DNA of 64,000 nt from Armatimonadetes bacterium Uphvl-Ar2. Lineage in GTDB: Bacteria; Armatimonadota; Fimbriimonadia; Fimbriimonadales; Fimbriimonadaceae. The first letter of the stretch is position 1, and the number at the start of each line of letters is the position of its first letter. Shown piece after piece: positions 25,797 through 40,501 of the stretch. A program made the position numbers and the translations under genes. The stretch lies in contig CP021424.1 of assembly GCA_002162095.1 (NCBI GenBank), positions 1,178,001 to 1,242,000 of the forward strand, written 5' to 3'. Under the pieces are notes generated by a model, which saw nothing but the letters and a program-made list of their open reading frames with translations, was not told where the DNA came from and made no database searches.

Positions 25797-26282
25797 TCAG
25801 TTGTGAGGTGGTTTCGGGATGTCGCCGGCGTATTCCACGCTTTGGATGCGCCACTTCTTGGCGGGCAGGCCCAGGAACGTGGTCTTGCGTTCCGAGACGA
25901 ACCAGATGTTCACCTTTGCTGCAATCTCGACGGTTTGGCCGGGTGATGGCTTTATCTTCATGTGAAGAGGCGACGGAATTACGGCCCGGTCCCCCTCAAG
26001 CTTGATCCCTCGATGACCAACGACGACCTCGGGCCTCAGTTGCCGAACGGTTAATGGGTCAAGGGAGGCTTCGGCGCCCTTCGCGGCGGCGTAGCTGGTG
26101 GCAAACATTTCGGCCACACCCCCGGGCTGACCCTGCTTGGTCGCCGCTATGCTCTTCTCGAGCTCAGTCGCGATGCTTTTGTAGCCAGCCTCAGGGCTAT
26201 AGAAGTCCATGAGCGTGGTCACGGCAAGAGCCAGCGGCACCACGAAGATGGCGAGAATGGCATGAAACTTCAACTCAGCCAT
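25797..26282 (-). CDS. Single-pass membrane protein, third member of a tandem paralogue family
   Basis: This 161-aa protein of unrecognised family has one N-terminal hydrophobic segment (about 8-26, ILAIFVVPLALAVTTLMDF) followed by an outward-facing domain. It shares with its two upstream neighbours the order ESIA/KSIA..G.PGG, RPEVVV/KPEVTV, a beta segment ending in an S-E-R/K pair, and KKWRIQSVEYAG near the C-terminus. It is the most divergent copy. ATG at 26282 is chosen; GTG at 26318 or ATG at 26387 are alternatives, none with a good ribosome-binding site. GC looks lower than in flanking genes. Confidence 0.6.
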   Translation of the reverse strand: MAELKFHAILAIFVVPLALAVTTLMDFYSPEAGYKSIATELEKSIAATKQGQPGGVAEMFATSYAAAKGAEASLDPLTVRQLRPEVVVGHRGIKLEGDRAVIPSPLHMKIKPSPGQTVEIAAKVNIWFVSERKTTFLGLPAKKWRIQSVEYAGDIPKPPHN

Positions 26283-26373
26283 ATCGAATCGAGGTGATTT
26301 CTTAGATTTCTCGGTCACGGTCGTCCGGTTAGGTGCCAGCGGCTGATTTGAGGTCGCAGGAGCAAATGTGATC

Positions 26374-26838
26374 TCACTCCAACGCAAGTTCGCCCAAGTA
26401 TTGAACGTCCGTAACGCGCCACCTCTTTACGGGAAAGATAAGGAGTTGGGTAGACCGCTCGGGAGAGAACACAATCTTGACATTCGCCGACATATCCATC
26501 GAAGTCCCAAAGAACGAGATTTTCATGAAGAATGGGGACGTGATTGTCGGAGTCGCTCCACTCATATCGATCCCGCGAGCCGGAACCGTAACTTCAGGCT
26601 TTGCCAACCTAATGTTTTGAATGTCGGTCGGAGTAGCGCCACCATCGAGCTGAGTCAGCTCCACCCAATACAGTTCTGCGATGCCGCCTGGTCGTCCTTC
26701 TTTGCTCCTGGCAATGCTCTCGTCAAGGGCCTGAAGGATTAACTGTTCATCGGTCGGCTGGGAAAGGAAGACTGCCAAGTAGGTGACAACCAACCCCACC
26801 ACCAAGGAACCCCCTACCCACCACAAGGCTTTCCGCAT
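26374..26838 (-). CDS. Single-pass membrane protein, second member of a tandem paralogue family
   Basis: This 154-aa protein has the start MRKALWWVGGSLVVGLVVTYL, nearly the same as the next gene upstream, so it is anchored by an N-terminal helix. The external domain carries LILQALDESIARSKEGRPGG, KPEVTVPARG and VKRWRVTDVQYLG. The ATG at 26838 is preceded by AGAGGA and begins the anchor. The family is not one I recognise; tandem copies suggest duplication and divergence. GC seems lower than the local average. Confidence 0.65.
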   Translation of the reverse strand: MRKALWWVGGSLVVGLVVTYLAVFLSQPTDEQLILQALDESIARSKEGRPGGIAELYWVELTQLDGGATPTDIQNIRLAKPEVTVPARGIDMSGATPTITSPFFMKISFFGTSMDMSANVKIVFSPERSTQLLIFPVKRWRVTDVQYLGELALE

Positions 26839-26927
26839 TGATCCTCTGCACCCCAAACGCAACGATTTCGGGCTCTTTCTTGTTCGCTATTGTAGCTTGA
26901 TATTGGTCAATACCGAGTCCTACCCGC

Positions 26928-27404
26928 TCAGTAAGGCGGGGTGAACCCGCCTTCCACATCCACTTTGATAATGCGCCACTTGCGCACGGGGATGACGAGA
27001 TTCTTGGTGCCGCTTTCGGCGGCAAAGGTGATGGTCACGCGGTCCAAGGTTTCGTCCATGGATTGCCCCAGCATGCTCAGCTTCACGTTCACGGGCGTGG
27101 TGATGGTCGCGGTGTCCCCGTCCAGCACCACCTCGCGGTGCATCACGGTCACTTCCGGCTTGGCCCGCTTGATGTAGTCGGCAATCTCCATCCGGTTCAC
27201 GCCTTCGTCACCGTTCCAGGTCAGGTTTCGGCTCAGGTACTCCAGCACGCCCCCGGGGCGCCCCGCCCGGCTGGCGGCAATGCTCTCATCCAGCGCTTGC
27301 AAGATCAGCTGCTTATCGCTGGGTTGGTTCAGCAACGAGGCCACGAACATCCCGATCAGGGCCAGCACCAGCGCTCCGCCCCCCCACCACACGGCTTTCC
27401 GCAT
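26928..27404 (-). CDS. Single-pass membrane protein, first member of a tandem paralogue family
   Basis: This 158-aa protein begins MRKAVWWGGGALVLALIGMF (membrane anchor), then LILQALDESIAASRAGRPGG, a small alpha/beta domain, AKPEVTVMHREVVLDGDTAT, and RKWRIIKVDVEGGF at the end. AAAGGAAAGGT before the ATG is a reasonable ribosome-binding site. The domain might be NTF2- or SnoaL-like by its general strand/helix pattern, but that is speculative. It lies 14 nt downstream of ribF on the same strand. Confidence 0.68.
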   Translation of the reverse strand: MRKAVWWGGGALVLALIGMFVASLLNQPSDKQLILQALDESIAASRAGRPGGVLEYLSRNLTWNGDEGVNRMEIADYIKRAKPEVTVMHREVVLDGDTATITTPVNVKLSMLGQSMDETLDRVTITFAAESGTKNLVIPVRKWRIIKVDVEGGFTPPY

Positions 27405-31841: not shown

Positions 31842-32324
31842 TTAAGCGGCTTGGTCCATAGCAAGGCTACGAGAGTTGGACTTTGCCGGTCCGTAGCCGG
31901 GCGTTTGGGCCTGGGCTTCGCGCACCAAGATGGCGGCGGTGCCGTTGATGAAGTCCAGTTCGCTGGCAATCAGCGCCTGATTCTTGTCAATGACGGCTTG
32001 CAAGTTGCGACCAACCACGACGACGCGGTTGGCGAGGGCTTGGACTTGCTGCGCTTCGGCTTTTTCAAGCACATTGACGAGACTTCGAAGACTCGGCTCC
32101 ACGCCCAGTTCTTCGGCCAGCCCGCGCGCCAATGCCGCCGCTTTGTCATCCAGTTCCTGCATCTTGTCCATCAAATCGTCCAAATCCGTTTGGATCTCTT
32201 CGATCTTTTCCACTTTGCGCAGGGTGAGTGCCACCGTCTGTCGGTGCAAGGCCGTCAGCAGGCGCTCAGACATGCTGAGCCACTCCCACCACGTTGCCTG
32301 AAGGTCTTGGGTCGTCTTAGCCAT
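31842..32324 (-). CDS. flgN: FlgN-type export chaperone
   Basis: This 160-aa all-helical, charged protein has the FlgN pattern: an N-terminal helix (WWEWLSMSERLLTALHRQTVAL), a central coiled coil and a C-terminal amphipathic segment. FlgN binds FlgK and FlgL before export. Sequence identity in this family is low, so position just ahead of flgK is strong support. It overlaps the flgJ-like gene by 8 nt. Confidence 0.85.
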   Translation of the reverse strand: MAKTTQDLQATWWEWLSMSERLLTALHRQTVALTLRKVEKIEEIQTDLDDLMDKMQELDDKAAALARGLAEELGVEPSLRSLVNVLEKAEAQQVQALANRVVVVGRNLQAVIDKNQALIASELDFINGTAAILVREAQAQTPGYGPAKSNSRSLAMDQAA

Positions 32325-32703
32325 GGGTTTCTATTCCTTGAGTTTCTTGTCGGGGCACGGTTTGCGTGCGGAGATACGCGGACCCGGTAGCGGCAAACAC
32401 CGACCGGGCGAGTCCAAAGCCCGGACCCGTTTGGGTCGCGTTCTTGGCAATCGAGTCGTCGAGAAAGTCGTAGGCCAGCGCGCCCATGCCCTGCGGGGCT
32501 TCGCCCATCGTGCTCTGCCGCATGGTTTGCAGCATCTGCTTGACGAACATCGCCTCGAACTGCTCTGCCGCATCCTGCAGCTTGCGCAGCCCTTGCAGTT
32601 GCTCGGGGCTCGGGTCCACTTGCGAGACTTGGCGCTTGAGGTCGCGCAGCCAGTCCGCCCGTACAGTGCGGTTGGCGGCGGTGGCCAACGGGGCGGGCAT
32701 CAT
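32317..32703 (-). CDS. flgJ: Flagellar rod-binding protein (FlgJ N-terminal domain only)
   Basis: This 128-aa protein carries only the rod-binding domain: LQDAAEQFEAMFVKQMLQTMR (about 44-64) and the following ALAYDFLDDSIAKN. The muramidase half found in gammaproteobacterial FlgJ is absent, as in many other phyla, so a separate enzyme must open the peptidoglycan. It starts at overlapping ATGs with the flgI stop. Confidence 0.9.
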   Translation of the reverse strand: MMPAPLATAANRTVRADWLRDLKRQVSQVDPSPEQLQGLRKLQDAAEQFEAMFVKQMLQTMRQSTMGEAPQGMGALAYDFLDDSIAKNATQTGPGFGLARSVFAATGSAYLRTQTVPRQETQGIETHG

Positions 32704-33902
32704 CGGATGATCACCCGCGCCTTCAGGGCGCCTTGCTCGGCCAGGGCTTGCAGGATCGCGATGACATCGCGGGCCGTCAGCTTGAGCGTCTGGAGAATTT
32801 GAGCCAAATCTTCGACCGTGGCATTGGGCGCCACCACCGCAATCTGGGTCTTGTCTTCTTCCACGCTGGTGTTGGTGATGGGCACCACCACGGTGTCACC
32901 GCGACCAAACGCGTTAGGTTGGCTAATGAGATAGCCCGTATCAATTCGGACCTTGAGGCTGCCGTGGGCAATCACGGCCGGGCCGAGCTTGACGTCGCCA
33001 CCAATCACAATGGTGCCGGTGCGTTCGTTGATAACCACGGAGGTCGGCAGGTTGGCCCGCACCATTAGGCCTTCGATCTCCTTGGCCACAAAGGTCGGCG
33101 CCACGCCATCCGGGATGGTGAGCTTCAGCGTCACTCCGTCCATCGCTTCGGCGTGGGTGTCGGCGAATTCGCTGTTGATGGCCGTCGCGGCGCGCTCCAC
33201 GGTGGTGAAGTCCGGCTCGTCGAGGTCAAAGTACATCACGTTGCCGTCAAAAACGATCTGCGTATTCACGCTGCGCTCGATGTCGGCCCCGTTGGGAATC
33301 ATCGCCACCGTACTGTGGTTGCTGCGCACGGAGCTTCCCCCGTTACCGGCGTTGAAGCCGCCAATGCTCACCGGGCCGCTGGCCACGGCGTAGGTGATGT
33401 CCGGGTTCGTCGGGCTGGTGAGGAATGAGGGCAGAAGCACCCCGCCCTGAAGGCTGCTGGCGTCGCCCAGGCTGCTCACGGTGACGTCGAGCTTGCGACC
33501 CGGCGCGGCAAACGCGGGCATCTCGGCGTTGATGGAGACGACAGCGATGTTCTTGGCGCGGTACGCCTGCTCATTCACCTGCGTGCCCCAACGGGCCAAC
33601 GCATTCGCCATCAGCGTGGTGGTGAAGGGCGTGGAACGCGAGTCCCCGGTGCCCTGCAAACCGACGATGAGACCGTAGCCAATCAGTTTGTTGCCACGGG
33701 CGCCCCGAAATCCACCAATATCGGCAAGTCGAACCGGAATTCCTTCACTCGTCGCTTCGGCAATCAGACGTCGGCGGCCTTCGCGTTGCTCTTGCATTTG
33801 CTTGAGCTGTTCGGCCGAAAGCGTGGGCGGTTTTTCGTCTTGCGCCCAGCCCATCAGGGGCAGCGCGAGACAAAAGAGAGCCAGGATTGAGGAAAGTTTC
33901 AT
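32700..33902 (-). CDS. flgI: Flagellar P-ring protein FlgI
   Basis: This 400-aa protein has a Sec signal peptide (about 1-20, ending GWAQ) and the typical FlgI body: RLADIGGFRGARGNKLIGYGLIVGL, GTGDSRSTPFTT, and the conserved C-terminus. It forms the periplasmic P-ring around the rod, so the cell envelope has an outer membrane. A hydrophilic insert at residues about 21-50 precedes the conserved start. It is coupled with flgH upstream. Confidence 0.96.
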   Translation of the reverse strand: MKLSSILALFCLALPLMGWAQDEKPPTLSAEQLKQMQEQREGRRRLIAEATSEGIPVRLADIGGFRGARGNKLIGYGLIVGLQGTGDSRSTPFTTTLMANALARWGTQVNEQAYRAKNIAVVSINAEMPAFAAPGRKLDVTVSSLGDASSLQGGVLLPSFLTSPTNPDITYAVASGPVSIGGFNAGNGGSSVRSNHSTVAMIPNGADIERSVNTQIVFDGNVMYFDLDEPDFTTVERAATAINSEFADTHAEAMDGVTLKLTIPDGVAPTFVAKEIEGLMVRANLPTSVVINERTGTIVIGGDVKLGPAVIAHGSLKVRIDTGYLISQPNAFGRGDTVVVPITNTSVEEDKTQIAVVAPNATVEDLAQILQTLKLTARDVIAILQALAEQGALKARVIIR

Positions 33903-34498
33903 TAGAACAACCAGTCCATAATCTGTGTCAGGATGCCGCGTCGTTGCCGGTCGGCGATCAGGCCCTTGCCTTCCATTCGGATCTCGGCGTCGGCCAAATT
34001 CGTGCTTAGCACGGTGTTATCGGCGCGGATGTCGTCGCGGCGGACAATGCCGCTCAAAACCAGGGTTTGGGTTTCGCGGTTGGTGACCAGCGAACGCGTG
34101 CCTTCCACCACCAGCTGACCCGAAGGCGTGACCTCGCGGACAATGACGCTCATGCGGGCTCGCATGCTGCTGTTCTGCTGCGTGGTGCCCGTGCCACCCA
34201 CGCTGGACGATGCGCTGGAAGTCAGCGGGCCGAACAAGCGGGAAATCAGACCGCCCAGGGCGGCGGTGCCGGCATCGTTGCTGTCGCTCTTGGTCGCCGA
34301 GGTGTCGGCGGAGAACCGGGCCAGGGTGGACTCTTCAATGAGAATCGTCACGATGTCCCCCACGCGGCTGGCCTTGCGATCCACAAACGGGTTGCGGGCG
34401 TCAGGCGCGGTGAGGCTGCCGGGGTTCTCTTTGCCCCCATCCTGGGCGGTGGCCCACAGGGGAAGCGCGGCGAGCAGAAGGATCAGAGTTCGTTTCAT
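33902..34498 (-). CDS. flgH: Flagellar L-ring protein FlgH without lipobox
   Basis: This 198-aa protein is FlgH by its conserved RKASRVGDIVTILIEE (about 41-56), MRARMSVIVREV, LVVEGTR and RDDI...DAEI regions. FlgH normally is a lipoprotein; here the signal peptide ends LWATAQD and the whole protein has no cysteine, so lipidation is impossible and signal peptidase I cleavage after ATA is likely. It forms the ring in the outer membrane. It is coupled to flgA and flgI. Confidence 0.92.
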   Translation of the reverse strand: MKRTLILLLAALPLWATAQDGGKENPGSLTAPDARNPFVDRKASRVGDIVTILIEESTLARFSADTSATKSDSNDAGTAALGGLISRLFGPLTSSASSSVGGTGTTQQNSSMRARMSVIVREVTPSGQLVVEGTRSLVTNRETQTLVLSGIVRRDDIRADNTVLSTNLADAEIRMEGKGLIADRQRRGILTQIMDWLF

Positions 34499-35586
34499 GA
34501 AGTCACCTCAACGGTGTCGGAGGAGGTGGCGCGGCCCGAAAGCTCAGCGCCGGAATCGGTCTTGACCACGACCATGCCGGTCGCGGAGTCCACGCGGCGG
34601 ACCGTGCCGGTGGTTTCCACCCGCAGGGCGCCCCGAATCACGATGACCGTGACGGTTTGGCCGGTGCGCATGGTGACGGAGGGGGAAGAATCGCGCAGCG
34701 GTACCGTGATTCCCGCCACCCGGACGCCTTCGACAAAGATGCCGAGCGTGACGGAGACCTTTGCGCCGTTGGCATTCACCCGTTCGGAGCGGATTTCGGC
34801 CGTCCCGGGGGCAATGGTCAGCGGATCCAGCGTCCCATCGAGTTCAAAGTGCTCGTGTCCCCGGGCGTTGCGGGCGGCAAGCCGGGCGGCATTGACGAGC
34901 AGCGTCGGGTCCACTTCCTGTCCGGCGCGCACCACATTGACGCGCTCGGCTCCCGACCACTGCACCTGCGCCCCGGGGGCAGCCGTGCGAAGTCGAGCGA
35001 GGAGGAGGGCTCGATCGAAGGTGCGCTTGACGCCAAACGGCGGTGCGGCCCCCAGATCGATGTCGGCGAAGTCGCCCGCACCGTCCACCAGATCGCCGAG
35101 GGTAATTCGATCTCCGGCCACCAAAGCGTCGCTCTTCAGCGACCACTGGGGCACGGCACCGGCCGCGCCAGCGGAGACGGTGGAGGACTGGACGGAGAGG
35201 GGATCTCCCGTAAGAATCCGACCCATCCCGTCCGTAGCGGGCGGGCTCATCGAGGGCCGGATCGAACTGGTGAAGAATCCACCTTGAACTTGGGTGTCGC
35301 TCTCTTGCAGACGCGCCAGCAGGATGCGCCCTGCCACTTGCCCTTGCACCCGCACCGTGCCATCTGTCGCGACGGTGAAGTCGCCAGAAGACAGGGAGAG
35401 ACGCGGCAAGAAGCCCGGGCCATCGGCGTGCTTCAGCTCGCCATCGCGGACCACCAGCGGGGCTTCGCGGGCGTAGAGCACGCGGCCTTCGCGGATGAAC
35501 CGCAGGTAGCCATCGCCTTCCACGCGCACCCACACGGGGGCGGCTGGGGCGGGGGCCAGGACGGTCAAGAGAACGAGGTTCAGCAT
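34495..35586 (-). CDS. flgA: FlgA P-ring chaperone fused to an N-terminal FlgF/G-like hook-basal-body domain
   Basis: This 363-aa protein has a likely signal peptide (1-15) and then a segment (about 19-95) that resembles the central domain of FlgG/FlgF: VEGDGYLRF, REGRVLYARE, DGELKHADG, FLPRLSL, VATDGTVRV. The C-terminal two thirds (about 145-363) is FlgA-like, with a SAF-type domain containing SVTMRTGQTVTVIVIRGALRV and a final beta domain. FlgA chaperones P-ring assembly in the periplasm and normally is about 220-240 residues. The gene starts 5 nt after flgG, the likely source of the extra domain. The frame is continuous, so the fusion is not an artefact of ORF joining. Confidence 0.8.
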   Translation of the reverse strand: MLNLVLLTVLAPAPAAPVWVRVEGDGYLRFIREGRVLYAREAPLVVRDGELKHADGPGFLPRLSLSSGDFTVATDGTVRVQGQVAGRILLARLQESDTQVQGGFFTSSIRPSMSPPATDGMGRILTGDPLSVQSSTVSAGAAGAVPQWSLKSDALVAGDRITLGDLVDGAGDFADIDLGAAPPFGVKRTFDRALLLARLRTAAPGAQVQWSGAERVNVVRAGQEVDPTLLVNAARLAARNARGHEHFELDGTLDPLTIAPGTAEIRSERVNANGAKVSVTLGIFVEGVRVAGITVPLRDSSPSVTMRTGQTVTVIVIRGALRVETTGTVRRVDSATGMVVVKTDSGAELSGRATSSDTVEVTS

Positions 35587-35591
35587 AAGAA

Positions 35592-36380
35592 TTACCGCTT
35601 GAGGTTGTTGAGAATGCCGAGCATTTCGTCGGCGGTCGTGATCGCCTTCGAGTTGATTTCGTAAGCACGCTGGGCCGTGATCATGCGGACCATTTCTTCC
35701 ACGATCTGCACGTTCGAGCCTTCAAGGAAGCGCTGCGCAATGTTGCCCGCGCCTTGGGTGCCCGGCGTCACGTCGGTGGCTTCACCGCTGGCGCCGCCCG
35801 GGCGGTAAAGGTTCTGGCCGATGCGGGTCAGGCCCGGCGGGTTTGTGAAAGTCGTCAGTGTGAGGTTGCCCAGGGTTTGCGGCTCTTCGTTGCCCGGCAC
35901 CGTGGCCGTGATCGTGCCGTCCAGCGCAATCGTGATGGCCGTCGAGCCCGGCGGAACGGTAACGGCCGGTTCCAGCGGGTAGCCGTCTTTGTTCACCAGC
36001 AGACCATTGGAATCCGCATTGAACGCCCCGTCGCGGGTGTAGGCAAACGTTCCGTCCGGCAGAGAAACCTTAAAGAAGCCCTCGCCGTTGATGGCCATAT
36101 CGGTGGCGTTGCCCGTGTTGAGCATGCCCCCTTGGTCAAAGCTGGTGGCACTGGCGGCAAACCGCACCCCGAGACCCACCTGGGTGGCCTGCGGCGTTTG
36201 GAAGGTGCCCCCGAGCGTGCTGCCGCTCGCCCGATAGGTTTGATAAATCAGGTCTTGGAATTCGGCGCGTTGGCCTTTGAATCCGGTGGTGTTCACGTTC
36301 GCCAGGTTGTTGGCCAGCACGTCCAAATTGGTCTGCTGGGCAATCATCCCGGTTCCGGCGGTATTCAGGGCTCTCATCAT
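35592..36380 (-). CDS. flgG: Flagellar distal rod protein FlgG
   Basis: This 262-aa rod protein has the N-terminal flagellar rod motif QQTNLDVLANNLANVNTTGFK, a central domain with GEGFFKVSLPDGTFAYTRDG, and the C-terminal helix EGSNVQIVEEMVRMITAQRA. The open frame extends upstream, but the ATG-ATG at 36380/36377 begins the conserved MRALNTAGTGM. It is separated from flgF by about 107 nt containing a GC-rich hairpin (36461-36478). Confidence 0.95.
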   Translation of the reverse strand: MMRALNTAGTGMIAQQTNLDVLANNLANVNTTGFKGQRAEFQDLIYQTYRASGSTLGGTFQTPQATQVGLGVRFAASATSFDQGGMLNTGNATDMAINGEGFFKVSLPDGTFAYTRDGAFNADSNGLLVNKDGYPLEPAVTVPPGSTAITIALDGTITATVPGNEEPQTLGNLTLTTFTNPPGLTRIGQNLYRPGGASGEATDVTPGTQGAGNIAQRFLEGSNVQIVEEMVRMITAQRAYEINSKAITTADEMLGILNNLKR

Positions 36381-36487
36381 AAGGGTCGTTGTCTCTCTTG
36401 GTGGTTTGGTTTTTGGGTCCGACCCCGCTTCTCTCGCCTGGTCAAGGCTCAAGGGTTCGTCCGGGGCTCATCCCCCGGGCCTGAACG

Positions 36488-37210
36488 TTAGCGGGAGTTC
36501 AAAATCTGAAGAAGTCGTCCGGTCATGTCTTCCTGGCCGGTCACGGATCGTTGCGCCATTTCAAACACGCGCTGGGTGCGGATCATGGCGATCATCTCTT
36601 CCACCGCCTGCACGTTGCTGCCTTCCACGGCACCACTGGCGAGGCGAGGGGTGGCCACAGGCGCGGCATCGGCGGATTGATAGTTGTTGTCGCCCACCTT
36701 GCTAAAGGTGCCTCGGAACACGCCGAGCTGAGCAATGGCTTGGCCTTCGGACTGCACTTCACCGGCTTCGGTGATCAGCACTTCGCCGGTCAGCGGGCCA
36801 ATGGGGCGGAGGCGGTTGTCCAGCACGGGCTGTCCGGTTTGGGTCACCAGGCGGCCAGTGTTATCCAGCGTAAAAGACCCGGCGCGGGTGTAGCGCACGC
36901 CTTGGTCGGTTTGCACCGCGAACATGCCTTCCTCCTGGATGGCGACATCCAGCGGGTTGCCGGTCACTTGCAGGGTGCCTTGTTCCATGTCCGTGTACTT
37001 CACGTTCATGGCTTGCACCGCGCCCATTTCGCCCAGGCTGCGCCCATTGCCACCGAAGTCGGCCATGGTGCGCATCAAGGCCTCATTGAAGGCGATTCCA
37101 TCCCGCTTAAAGCCGGTGGTTGACGCGTTCGCTAGGTTCTGGGCGATGACGTCGAGCTGTGCTTGCGCATTCAGCATCGCCGCACCGGCAGAATAAACAC
37201 CTCTTTGCAT
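36488..37210 (-). CDS. flgF: Flagellar rod protein FlgF
   Basis: This 240-aa protein has the rod/hook N-terminal motif AQLDVIAQNLANASTTGFK, a shortened central domain (EEGMFAVQTDQGVRYTRAG) and the C-terminal EGSNVQAVEEMIAMIRTQR. The order flgF-flgG-flgA-flgH-flgI supports FlgF as the proximal rod protein. It is the first gene of the flagellar run; its promoter should lie in the 117-bp divergent gap with the M50-like gene. No convincing sigma-28 box is visible there. Confidence 0.92.
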   Translation of the reverse strand: MQRGVYSAGAAMLNAQAQLDVIAQNLANASTTGFKRDGIAFNEALMRTMADFGGNGRSLGEMGAVQAMNVKYTDMEQGTLQVTGNPLDVAIQEEGMFAVQTDQGVRYTRAGSFTLDNTGRLVTQTGQPVLDNRLRPIGPLTGEVLITEAGEVQSEGQAIAQLGVFRGTFSKVGDNNYQSADAAPVATPRLASGAVEGSNVQAVEEMIAMIRTQRVFEMAQRSVTGQEDMTGRLLQILNSR

Positions 37211-38019: not shown

Positions 38020-38745
38020 TCAGGACTTCTTGGCGCGGCGGCGGCGAGCGAGAGCCGCAAGGCCCGCACCCAGCACCAGCATCGTGCCCGGTTCCGGCAC
38101 GGCGTCCGTCACCATGGCGTTGTCGTACCACATGTCGTGGGTGCTGCTCAGCGAGTCACCAATGCGGAACACGTTCGGGGCACCGGCGGCGCCACGGGCG
38201 AATTGACCCGCCTGGACGTCGTTGATGAAGAACTTGGCGTTGGTATCGTCCACGTGGATCGCCAGCTTCACCCATTGGTCGGTCACGACATCGGGGCCAC
38301 CCGTCAGGGGAACCCAGTTCACACCCGCAAAGGCAACCCGGGCAAACCACTTGTTACTGGCGGTTCCGTTGAAAGTGCCGATCGCCCAGATGTTCTGCAG
38401 CGTGCCCGTGCTTTGAGTGCCCGAGTACGACATCAGCGACATGTAGCGTCGGCCCTGCGGCGGATACGTATCCACGTAAACCCACGTTTCAGCCACCGTC
38501 AGGCCGGTCGTGGACGGCGTGAAGTCGTGGCGAGCTTGCCCCGAGGCCGTCGTGACCTTGGCCGCAAACGAGTCGATGGAGTAGTTCGTGGTGCCGTTAC
38601 CGGCAACTACCGCCGCACTACCGAAACCCGTCGGCGAATACCAACCGCTGCTGAAGGAGCCGGATTCGAAATCATCGCTGAAGAGCACGGCGGCCTGCGA
38701 GACTCCGACCGCGGCCAGCGCCATCGCTGCAAATAAACCTCTCAT
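38020..38745 (-). CDS. PEP-CTERM exported protein (LamG/concanavalin-like body)
   Basis: This 241-aa protein has a signal peptide (about 1-18, ending VSQA), a beta-rich body resembling a LamG/3-keto-disaccharide-hydrolase-like jelly roll (LFSDDFESGSFSSGW at its start), and a C-terminal PEP-CTERM sorting signal: VPEPGTMLVLGAGLAAL and an Arg-rich tip. PEP-CTERM proteins are processed by an exosortase and often go to the surface or extracellular polymer. GAGGTG precedes the ATG at 38745. No exosortase is in the window. Confidence 0.9.
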   Translation of the reverse strand: MRGLFAAMALAAVGVSQAAVLFSDDFESGSFSSGWYSPTGFGSAAVVAGNGTTNYSIDSFAAKVTTASGQARHDFTPSTTGLTVAETWVYVDTYPPQGRRYMSLMSYSGTQSTGTLQNIWAIGTFNGTASNKWFARVAFAGVNWVPLTGGPDVVTDQWVKLAIHVDDTNAKFFINDVQAGQFARGAAGAPNVFRIGDSLSSTHDMWYDNAMVTDAVPEPGTMLVLGAGLAALARRRRAKKS

Positions 38746-38817
38746 AGTTTCACCTCGCGCACATCGGCGCAATTAGGTTCAGCCTACCAGCCGTAGCCTA
38801 GACAGGCTCGCATTTGA

Positions 38818-38842: not shown

Positions 38843-40501
38843 CTATAGTACGGTGCGGCGATACGAGTCGCTTGGAAGCCGTTCGCGGATGCTATGCACG
38901 GTCGCCACATCGGCAGGGTCAATGTCCAGCAAACGCAGCCAGTCGTCCACCCCGTCGTTCTTGGGGAAGATTTCGCCTTCGCGGTACTCATCCCGCAGGG
39001 CATCGTCCAGGTCTTGCTTGGTGATGCCGGCCTTGTTCGCTCCGTCGGCCACCGCCCGGCGAATGGCCGAATCCTTGGCCCGGTCCACCACCGATTTCAG
39101 CAGCGCACCGCTCACAAAGTCCTTCCAGTGCAAGGTATCGGTCCGGCCATCCCGGCGGTAAACGCGCAAAAACTCCGTCGCGGTTTCAGTCCGCCACAGG
39201 CGGCTAATCGTCCATTCCAGTAGGGCTTCGCGGGCGCAAGCCTCGCCGTCGTGGGCCTCAATTTCGGCCGGATACAGCGGCAAGCGGTCGTGCAGATACA
39301 ACGCCAGAATGTCCCGCGCGCCCTCCCGGGTCGGTCGCTCGATCTTCACCTTGCGATTGATCCGCTCGGGCCGCAGGATGGCGGGGTCAATGTAGTCCGG
39401 CCGGTTGCTGGTCAGCACGATGACCACGTTCTCTAGGCTCACTAAGCCGTCCATTTCGGCGCAGAACTGCGGCACCACCGTATTGGCGATGTTGAGATAG
39501 CGACCACTGCTTCGAGTGCGTAGCAGGCTCTCGGCTTCGTCAATGAAGACCACCACCAGGTGGCCCTCGGCGGCGCGTTCGCGGGCGGTGGCGAAAATCT
39601 CACGCACCATGCGCTCCGTCTCGCCCAGCCACATGTTCAAAATCTTCGGCCCGCTGATGTTGAGGAACACCTCTTGCACCGGTCGCCCCAAGCGCTCGCT
39701 GTATTCGCGGGCGAGGTTGTAGGCAATCGCGCGGCCAATCAGCGTCTTGCCGCAGCCCGGAGGCCCGTAGAGCAAGATGCCCTTCACGGGTTTCTTATCA
39801 AACTGCGCGTAGAGCTCGGGGTGGAGGAGCGGAAACTCCAGCGTCTCCCGAATCAGATCCACCGCCACTTCTTGCCCGCCAATGGCTTCCCAGGGGGTGC
39901 GGGGCACTTCTTCGAGGAAGTAATCGCGCGTCCCGGCTCGGGGCAGGTGCTCCACCGCAATCCTTCCGCTGGCATCCAGGCGCACCTCGTCGCCCTTGTT
40001 GATGCGGTACTCGCCCAGTTGGGGGCCAATGAGCACAAACTTGCCGCCTTCGCCCTGGGTGTCGGCGCCCACGCGCAGGGTGTCCTCGCGCACTTCGGCC
40101 ACGCGCACCGCCGCGCCCGTGGGCAGGGTCGGCACCACCGCCACGATGGCGTAGGCTTCGTTCAGGCGCACCCGCGCCCCGGGGATCAGACTTTCCGGGG
40201 CCACTTCCGGGTTCACCGTCACCACAAATTCCGTGTCGCCCTGCACCACCATCGCCAATCCGTCGTCCATGGCCCGCACATAGGTGCCGATGCGGTTGGC
40301 GGGCTGGGTCAGGGTTTGCACCACCTCTTCGTACTTTTGCAGGGCTTCGCTCTGGTCGGCCAACGCCCGGTCTTGCGCCTCGATCTCGGTGACAAGCTCG
40401 CCCAGGTAGGCCTGCAGGCGCGGGTCGGGGTCCGGAACCATGTCCCGGATGCGCTGCGCCAGCCGGTAGAGTCGGCTTTCCGCGTCGGGGGTGGGGGTCA
40501 T
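38843..40501 (-). CDS. arc: Proteasome-type AAA ATPase (ARC/Mpa family)
   Basis: This 552-aa AAA ATPase is related to Mpa/ARC, the hexameric unfoldase of the bacterial proteasome. It has an N-terminal coiled coil (about 29-65), one or two OB domains (about 70-195) and an AAA domain with Walker A GPPGCGKT (246-253), Walker B VVVFIDE (316-322) and the arginine-finger region. The C-terminal end reads SYRRTVL and lacks the penultimate Tyr that Mpa uses (QYL) to open the 20S gate. No prcA/prcB, pafA, dop or Pup/UBact gene is in the window. It may act without the 20S core or with partners elsewhere. It begins 33 nt after prfA. Confidence 0.9.
   Translation of the reverse strand: MTPTPDAESRLYRLAQRIRDMVPDPDPRLQAYLGELVTEIEAQDRALADQSEALQKYEEVVQTLTQPANRIGTYVRAMDDGLAMVVQGDTEFVVTVNPEVAPESLIPGARVRLNEAYAIVAVVPTLPTGAAVRVAEVREDTLRVGADTQGEGGKFVLIGPQLGEYRINKGDEVRLDASGRIAVEHLPRAGTRDYFLEEVPRTPWEAIGGQEVAVDLIRETLEFPLLHPELYAQFDKKPVKGILLYGPPGCGKTLIGRAIAYNLAREYSERLGRPVQEVFLNISGPKILNMWLGETERMVREIFATARERAAEGHLVVVFIDEAESLLRTRSSGRYLNIANTVVPQFCAEMDGLVSLENVVIVLTSNRPDYIDPAILRPERINRKVKIERPTREGARDILALYLHDRLPLYPAEIEAHDGEACAREALLEWTISRLWRTETATEFLRVYRRDGRTDTLHWKDFVSGALLKSVVDRAKDSAIRRAVADGANKAGITKQDLDDALRDEYREGEIFPKNDGVDDWLRLLDIDPADVATVHSIRERLPSDSYRRTVL

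Follow-up and report, generated by a model that had tools for sequence, protein, structure and literature searches.

Salmonella FlgA binds the P-ring protein FlgI through its C-terminal domain; the mechanism that sorts FlgI to the nascent rod, and the one by which FlgA releases it, have been stated to be unknown, with the suggestion that FlgA may act as a pilot (PMC4895218). The surface of the Salmonella rod that faces the P ring is acidic, formation of the P ring is thought to start with basic residues of FlgI contacting this acidic rod, and the FlgG residues Asp109, Asp154 and Glu203 face Lys63/Lys95 of FlgI (PMC8298488). In Gammaproteobacteria a periplasmic accessory protein, FlhE, has been proposed to control rod assembly by acting on the distal rod, suggesting that the rod can come under the control of a protein in the periplasm (PMC11247099). 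FlhE is a separate protein that is not fused to FlgA, and no FlgG-type domain has been described in it. A literature search of open-licence papers returned no description of an architecture combining FlgA with the D1 domain of FlgG, in agreement with the first-pass annotation of the DNA studied here, to which the architecture was not known from described FlgA proteins.

The window (the whole stretch of DNA analysed, 64,000 nucleotides) contains a flgA gene in which open reading frame, family and fold searches identified such an N-terminal FlgG-type D1 domain. The open reading frame occupies 34495..35586 on the minus strand, with its ATG at 35586 and its stop codon at 34495-34497, and comprises 363 codons; the coordinates and the length of 363 aa had been given correctly by the first-pass annotation, as had the spacing to flgG, since flgA starts 5 nt past the flgG stop codon. 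At its other end flgA overlaps flgH by 4 nt, and the gene order on the minus strand is flgF-flgG-flgA-flgH-flgI-flgJ. Upstream lie flgF (36488..37210; TIGR02490, E 7e-47) and flgG (35592..36452), the latter identified by TIGR02488 (E 1e-101). The flgG open reading frame begins with TTG and encodes 286 aa, and translation probably begins at the ATG of residue 25-26. Immediately 3′ of flgA, in the window and in its relatives, are the genes for the L and P rings: flgH (33902..34498), named from its position and from matches to the flgH-position genes of relatives, and flgI (32700..33902; NF003676 FlgI, E 8.5e-100 over residues 60-399), whose product carries an N-terminal extension of ~35 aa. They are followed by a gene for a flgJ-like rod protein (32317..32703; 128 aa), assigned from its open reading frame and synteny and of insufficient length for a muramidase domain. 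All of these genes are on the minus strand.

Searched alone, the window FlgA gave a weak match to TIGR02490 (flgF) over residues 22-107 (E 0.05), was not listed against PF22692 up to E 10, and matched PF13144 (ChapFlgA) over residues 304-361 (E 9e-5) with 22.9 bits, slightly below the cut-off of 23.8 bits. An alignment of 27 FlgA orthologues was used as the basis of the profile searches and of an AlphaFold model. Among these orthologues, PF22692 (LlgE_F_G_D1) was matched in 24 (best E 2e-13) and TIGR02488 FlgG in 21 (best E 4e-14), together with PF13144 in 20 and TIGR03170 in 24. When the profile of the alignment was compared with PDB sequences, FlgG (6jf2) matched collinearly at profile positions 11-128 (E 1e-15) and Salmonella FlgA (3tee) at positions 315-381 (E 3e-6). 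The N- and C-terminal D0-helix domains that serve polymerisation (PF00460 and PF06429), both of which are present in the window's own FlgG and FlgF, were not matched in the window FlgA or in the 27 orthologues.

The AlphaFold model, built from the orthologue alignment alone with no FlgG sequence included, had a mean pLDDT of 90.4 (~96 in the N-terminal domain), a break at residues 132-142 and a pTM of 0.53, as expected of domains joined by a flexible linker. Model residues 16-133 superimposed on the 20 kDa fragment of FlgG (6jf2) with Z 17.2 and rmsd 2.2 Å over 118 aligned residues (VIA-align), and the same domain resembled FlgE (9wwj, Z 16.8), FlgG (7cbm, Z 16.2) and 8wk3, a proximal rod entry with FlgF (Z 12.8). 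Profile searches of the N-terminal region and prediction of the full protein, two of the checks proposed in the first-pass annotation, thus both recovered FlgG. The FlgG/FlgF-like character that it had noted for residues about 19-95 is upheld; the extent is not, as the domain spans residues ~16-130 and includes the P-G-x-x-G-x-G end of FlgG D1. Model residues 145-363 aligned with Thermotoga maritima FlgA (3frn, residues 17-283; Z 9.0, rmsd 8.7), and residues 304-363 aligned with the barrel of Salmonella FlgA (3tee; Z 7.9, rmsd 2.2), indicating that the fused D1 precedes a complete four-domain FlgA. The fold comparisons to 3frn and 3vjp (Z 9.0-9.6, rmsd 8.6-8.7) were made across domains that are shifted relative to one another.

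From its N-terminus, the protein therefore comprises a putative Sec signal peptide (residues ~1-15; 35542..35586), the D1-like domain (residues ~16-130; 35197..35541), a flexible linker (residues ~132-142; 35161..35193) and the FlgA core (residues ~145-363; 34498..35154), all encoded on the minus strand. The signal peptide was recognised by eye (MLNLVLLTVLAPAPA); it is short and hydrophobic, its start carries no basic residue, and the pLDDT of this first block is 57. The linker, with pLDDT below 50, varies strongly in length and sequence among relatives. Within the core, the C-terminal barrel (~304-363) is predicted to be the part that binds FlgI, by analogy with Salmonella FlgA. Profiles, fold and phylogeny together make it almost certain that residues ~16-130 are a FlgE/F/G-type D1 domain. 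A chance resemblance or an assembly artefact, as might be suspected from the weak scores of the single window sequence, is already refuted by the profile matches, by the high-confidence fold identity and by the recurrence of the fusion in 76 genome assemblies.

The fused protein is a variant of FlgA and not a separate new system. It has in common with Salmonella FlgA (3vjp, 3tee; PMC4895218) the C-terminal β-barrel, the core domains and the partners FlgH and FlgI. In contrast, Salmonella FlgA (219 aa) is without a FlgG-type domain, and the core here is four-domain and T. maritima-like. T. maritima FlgA (3frn) has an extra N-terminal D0 (17-84) ahead of the Salmonella-like part, and this D0 corresponds to the residues from ~145 onwards here; residues 16-130 have no counterpart in it. 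With FlgG (6jf2, 7cbm), FlgA-D1 shares the D1 fold, the GxGYL/GxGFF and Y-x-R/K motifs, the DG turns and the P-G end, but it lacks the D0 helices and the L-stretch, and its charge has moved from about -6 to 0. Moreover, FlgG is exported by the type III pathway, whereas the fused FlgA bears an apparent Sec leader. The architecture is one in which a structural filament domain has been reused inside an assembly factor.

We surveyed 291 Armatimonadota genomes by profile search, counting fusions by hand from the match table. The fusion was present in one open frame in 76 genomes (a few cut at contig ends): 70 from the window's own family (f1), five from f5 and one from f3, where f2-f5 are sister families in the same order. 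Related genomes therefore carry the same fusion, as the first-pass annotation had proposed to ask, and among the genomes of the phylum surveyed it was seen in one order, in three of its five families. The fused flgA always adjoins flgG, in the gene order seen in the window, and a copy 98% identical to the window FlgA is found in the MAG Chthonomonas sp. UBA2785 (Armatimonadota), the sole near-identical match when the single protein was scanned against named genomes. Among the 291 genomes no fusion was seen in f2, f4 or other families of the phylum, which have either separate adjacent flgG and flgA or FlgA alone. Fusion-like matches over profile positions 11-320 in other Armatimonadota classes cross stop codons and were rejected as adjacent, separate flgG and flgA genes, and the long FlgA open frames of f2 (343-437) had no D1 match upstream.

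Outside the phylum, no fusion was found in ~295 genomes, many of them non-flagellated and with large phyla such as Pseudomonadota not among them; ~106 of these genomes gave no match at E 1e-40, and for 27 of those there were only separate FlgG and FlgA matches at E 1e-3. Five further phylum sets in the same survey likewise contained no fusion, and the best match outside the phylum crosses a stop codon. In a plasmid scan, two annotated matches were ordinary FlgG genes and a third fell at no annotated gene.

Within the families that bear the fusion, D1-less FlgA proteins with their own leader were identified in two genomes of genus g6 in f1 (G107 and G108) and in one of f5 (G034), at loci L102, L103 and L104; a further member of g6 (G007) has D1. 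Their position inside bearing families implies a minimum of two losses of D1, and hence that the FlgA core functions without it. Such natural losses, within the same genus or family, offer controls for D1 function.

A tree was built from 87 D1 domains (few columns, long FlgA rows); in it the FlgA-D1 copies formed one group (100/100), and the fusion thus has a single origin. The group fell on the FlgG side relative to FlgF (100/99), where it joined the FlgG sequences of f1 (99/92). In an AU test a grouping of FlgA-D1 with FlgF was not rejected (p 0.30). Because the test leaves this alternative standing, FlgG is favoured over FlgF as the donor but not proven; the neighbouring flgG, named as the likely donor by the first-pass annotation, is a likely source. 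A piece of the adjacent flgG, minus the D0 helices, would have been duplicated and fused once onto the front of FlgA. Although f3 bears the fusion, its FlgG groups with that of f2/f4, suggesting either that the fusion predates the split and was later lost or that f3 acquired it.

Comparison of the window with its 98% relative gave a dN/dS of 0.07 for D1 and 0.115 for the core (12 and 13 nucleotide differences), and D1 is under purifying selection, on these few changes. Within the family, conservation of D1 equals or exceeds that of the FlgA core (mean identity 34% versus 28%). FlgA-D1 evolves faster than FlgG-D1 (mean pairwise identity 32% versus 53%), which fits a release from the rod lattice. 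The mean net charge is +0.4 for FlgA-D1 and -5.6 for FlgG-D1, and over 38 same-genome pairs FlgA-D1 averages 6.2 above FlgG-D1, a difference that reflects one ancestral event and not 38 independent ones. The acidic FlgG columns 94, 117, 123 and 132 are lost in FlgA-D1, and conserved Arg/Lys residues occur at FlgG positions 104 (92%), 111 (74%), 172 (82%) and 200 (87%), the last being 77% acidic in FlgG; the corresponding window residues are Arg29, Arg35, Arg87 and Arg110. Acid is kept or gained at positions 154 (76% D/E, 29 of 38), 98 (84%) and the 108/109 turn. Position 203 is hydrophobic (Leu/Ile/Met/Val), and the Arg116 motif, invariant among the FlgF/G proteins compared, is kept.

By analogy with Salmonella FlgA, and from its leader, the fused protein is likely to be a Sec-exported periplasmic chaperone of FlgI. 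Without D0, FlgA-D1 should be unable to polymerise into the rod. We favour the reading that D1 is a putative rod-docking or targeting module delivering FlgI to the distal rod, with a probability of roughly 0.45, over one in which it imitates the rod. Docking to the rod had been suggested in the first-pass annotation, which did not raise mimicry; it is plausible, and the change of charge in FlgA-D1 points in its direction. The C-terminal barrel would hold FlgI, the tethered and less acidic D1 would dock on the acidic distal rod, either laterally or by the D1-D1 contacts of rod subunits, and docking would raise the concentration of FlgI at the site of P-ring formation. Consistent with docking are the retention of D1 beside flgG in 76 genomes, its single origin, purifying selection and the charge shift; the loss of negative charge together with the fixed arginines fits recognition of an acidic rod better, while the acidic turns that were kept fit mimicry directed at FlgI. 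However, the charge shift could also be an adaptation to free periplasmic life rather than to rod binding, D1 is dispensable in the lineages that lost it, and most flagellated bacteria manage without a FlgA-D1. Tentatively, a single ancient partial duplication of flgG is proposed to have converted a structural domain of the rod into one for targeting, with the P-ring subunit being brought to the rod by a replica of the rod itself. If true, docking would be a direct and previously undescribed answer, in one lineage, to how FlgI locates the distal rod, and a chaperone that bears a domain from the site where it assembles its ring would provide a natural, testable handle on the delivery and release of FlgI.

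The acids at 154, 98 and 108/109 also suit a D1 that imitates the rod towards FlgI, covering its rod-facing surface and blocking early ring closure until FlgG later displaces D1. Position 154 and the 108/109 turn correspond to FlgI-facing residues of FlgG, and each of the two FlgI lysines, Lys63 and Lys95, is conserved in 31 of 37 D1-bearing genomes. Nevertheless, both lysine positions are mostly basic in D1-less genomes too, the window FlgI has Ser at the second of them, the site of Glu203 has become hydrophobic, and the total charge of D1 has shifted away from that of the rod; such a mimic, the main rival to docking, is considered rather unlikely. The repeated loss and faster evolution of D1 would be expected if it merely conferred stability, solubility or distance without any partner; its retention in three families under purifying selection, and conserved basic residues that are missing in FlgG, render this improbable. 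Retention of the complete D1 fold, including the Arg116 motif, would also permit an axial pairing of D1 with the D1 domains of the terminal FlgG layer, or else with the FlgJ cap, timing the P ring to the end of the rod. Despite the proposed precedent of FlhE for periplasmic rod control (PMC11247099), we consider this pairing distinctly improbable.

Two features of FlgI were considered as possible correlates of D1 and dropped. Lys63 and Lys95 are mostly basic irrespective of D1. In f1 (loci L083-L122), FlgI has a charged extension of ~35-60 aa after the leader and ahead of the conserved VRIKDIARFRG start. This extension is absent from f5, f2 and other classes, and thus occurs in f1 only, is missing in D1-bearing f5 and is retained in the D1-less G108. 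In the window FlgI (32700-33902, minus strand), the Ser at the Lys95 position stands where Salmonella and E. coli have a Lys that faces the rod.

Several other genes on the minus strand of the window were recorded. At 25797-27404, three adjacent small membrane-anchored proteins (196, 162 and 158 aa) appear to be tandem duplicates; two of them were scanned against NCBIfam and gave no match. A protein with a PEP-CTERM sorting signal (38020-38772; TIGR02595) adjoins the flagellar cluster, and 1.6 kb upstream of flgF lies a gene for a 552-aa AAA protein (38843-40501) that closely resembles the Pup-proteasome ATPase (match to TIGR03689 at E 1.5e-134, a little below the cut-off).
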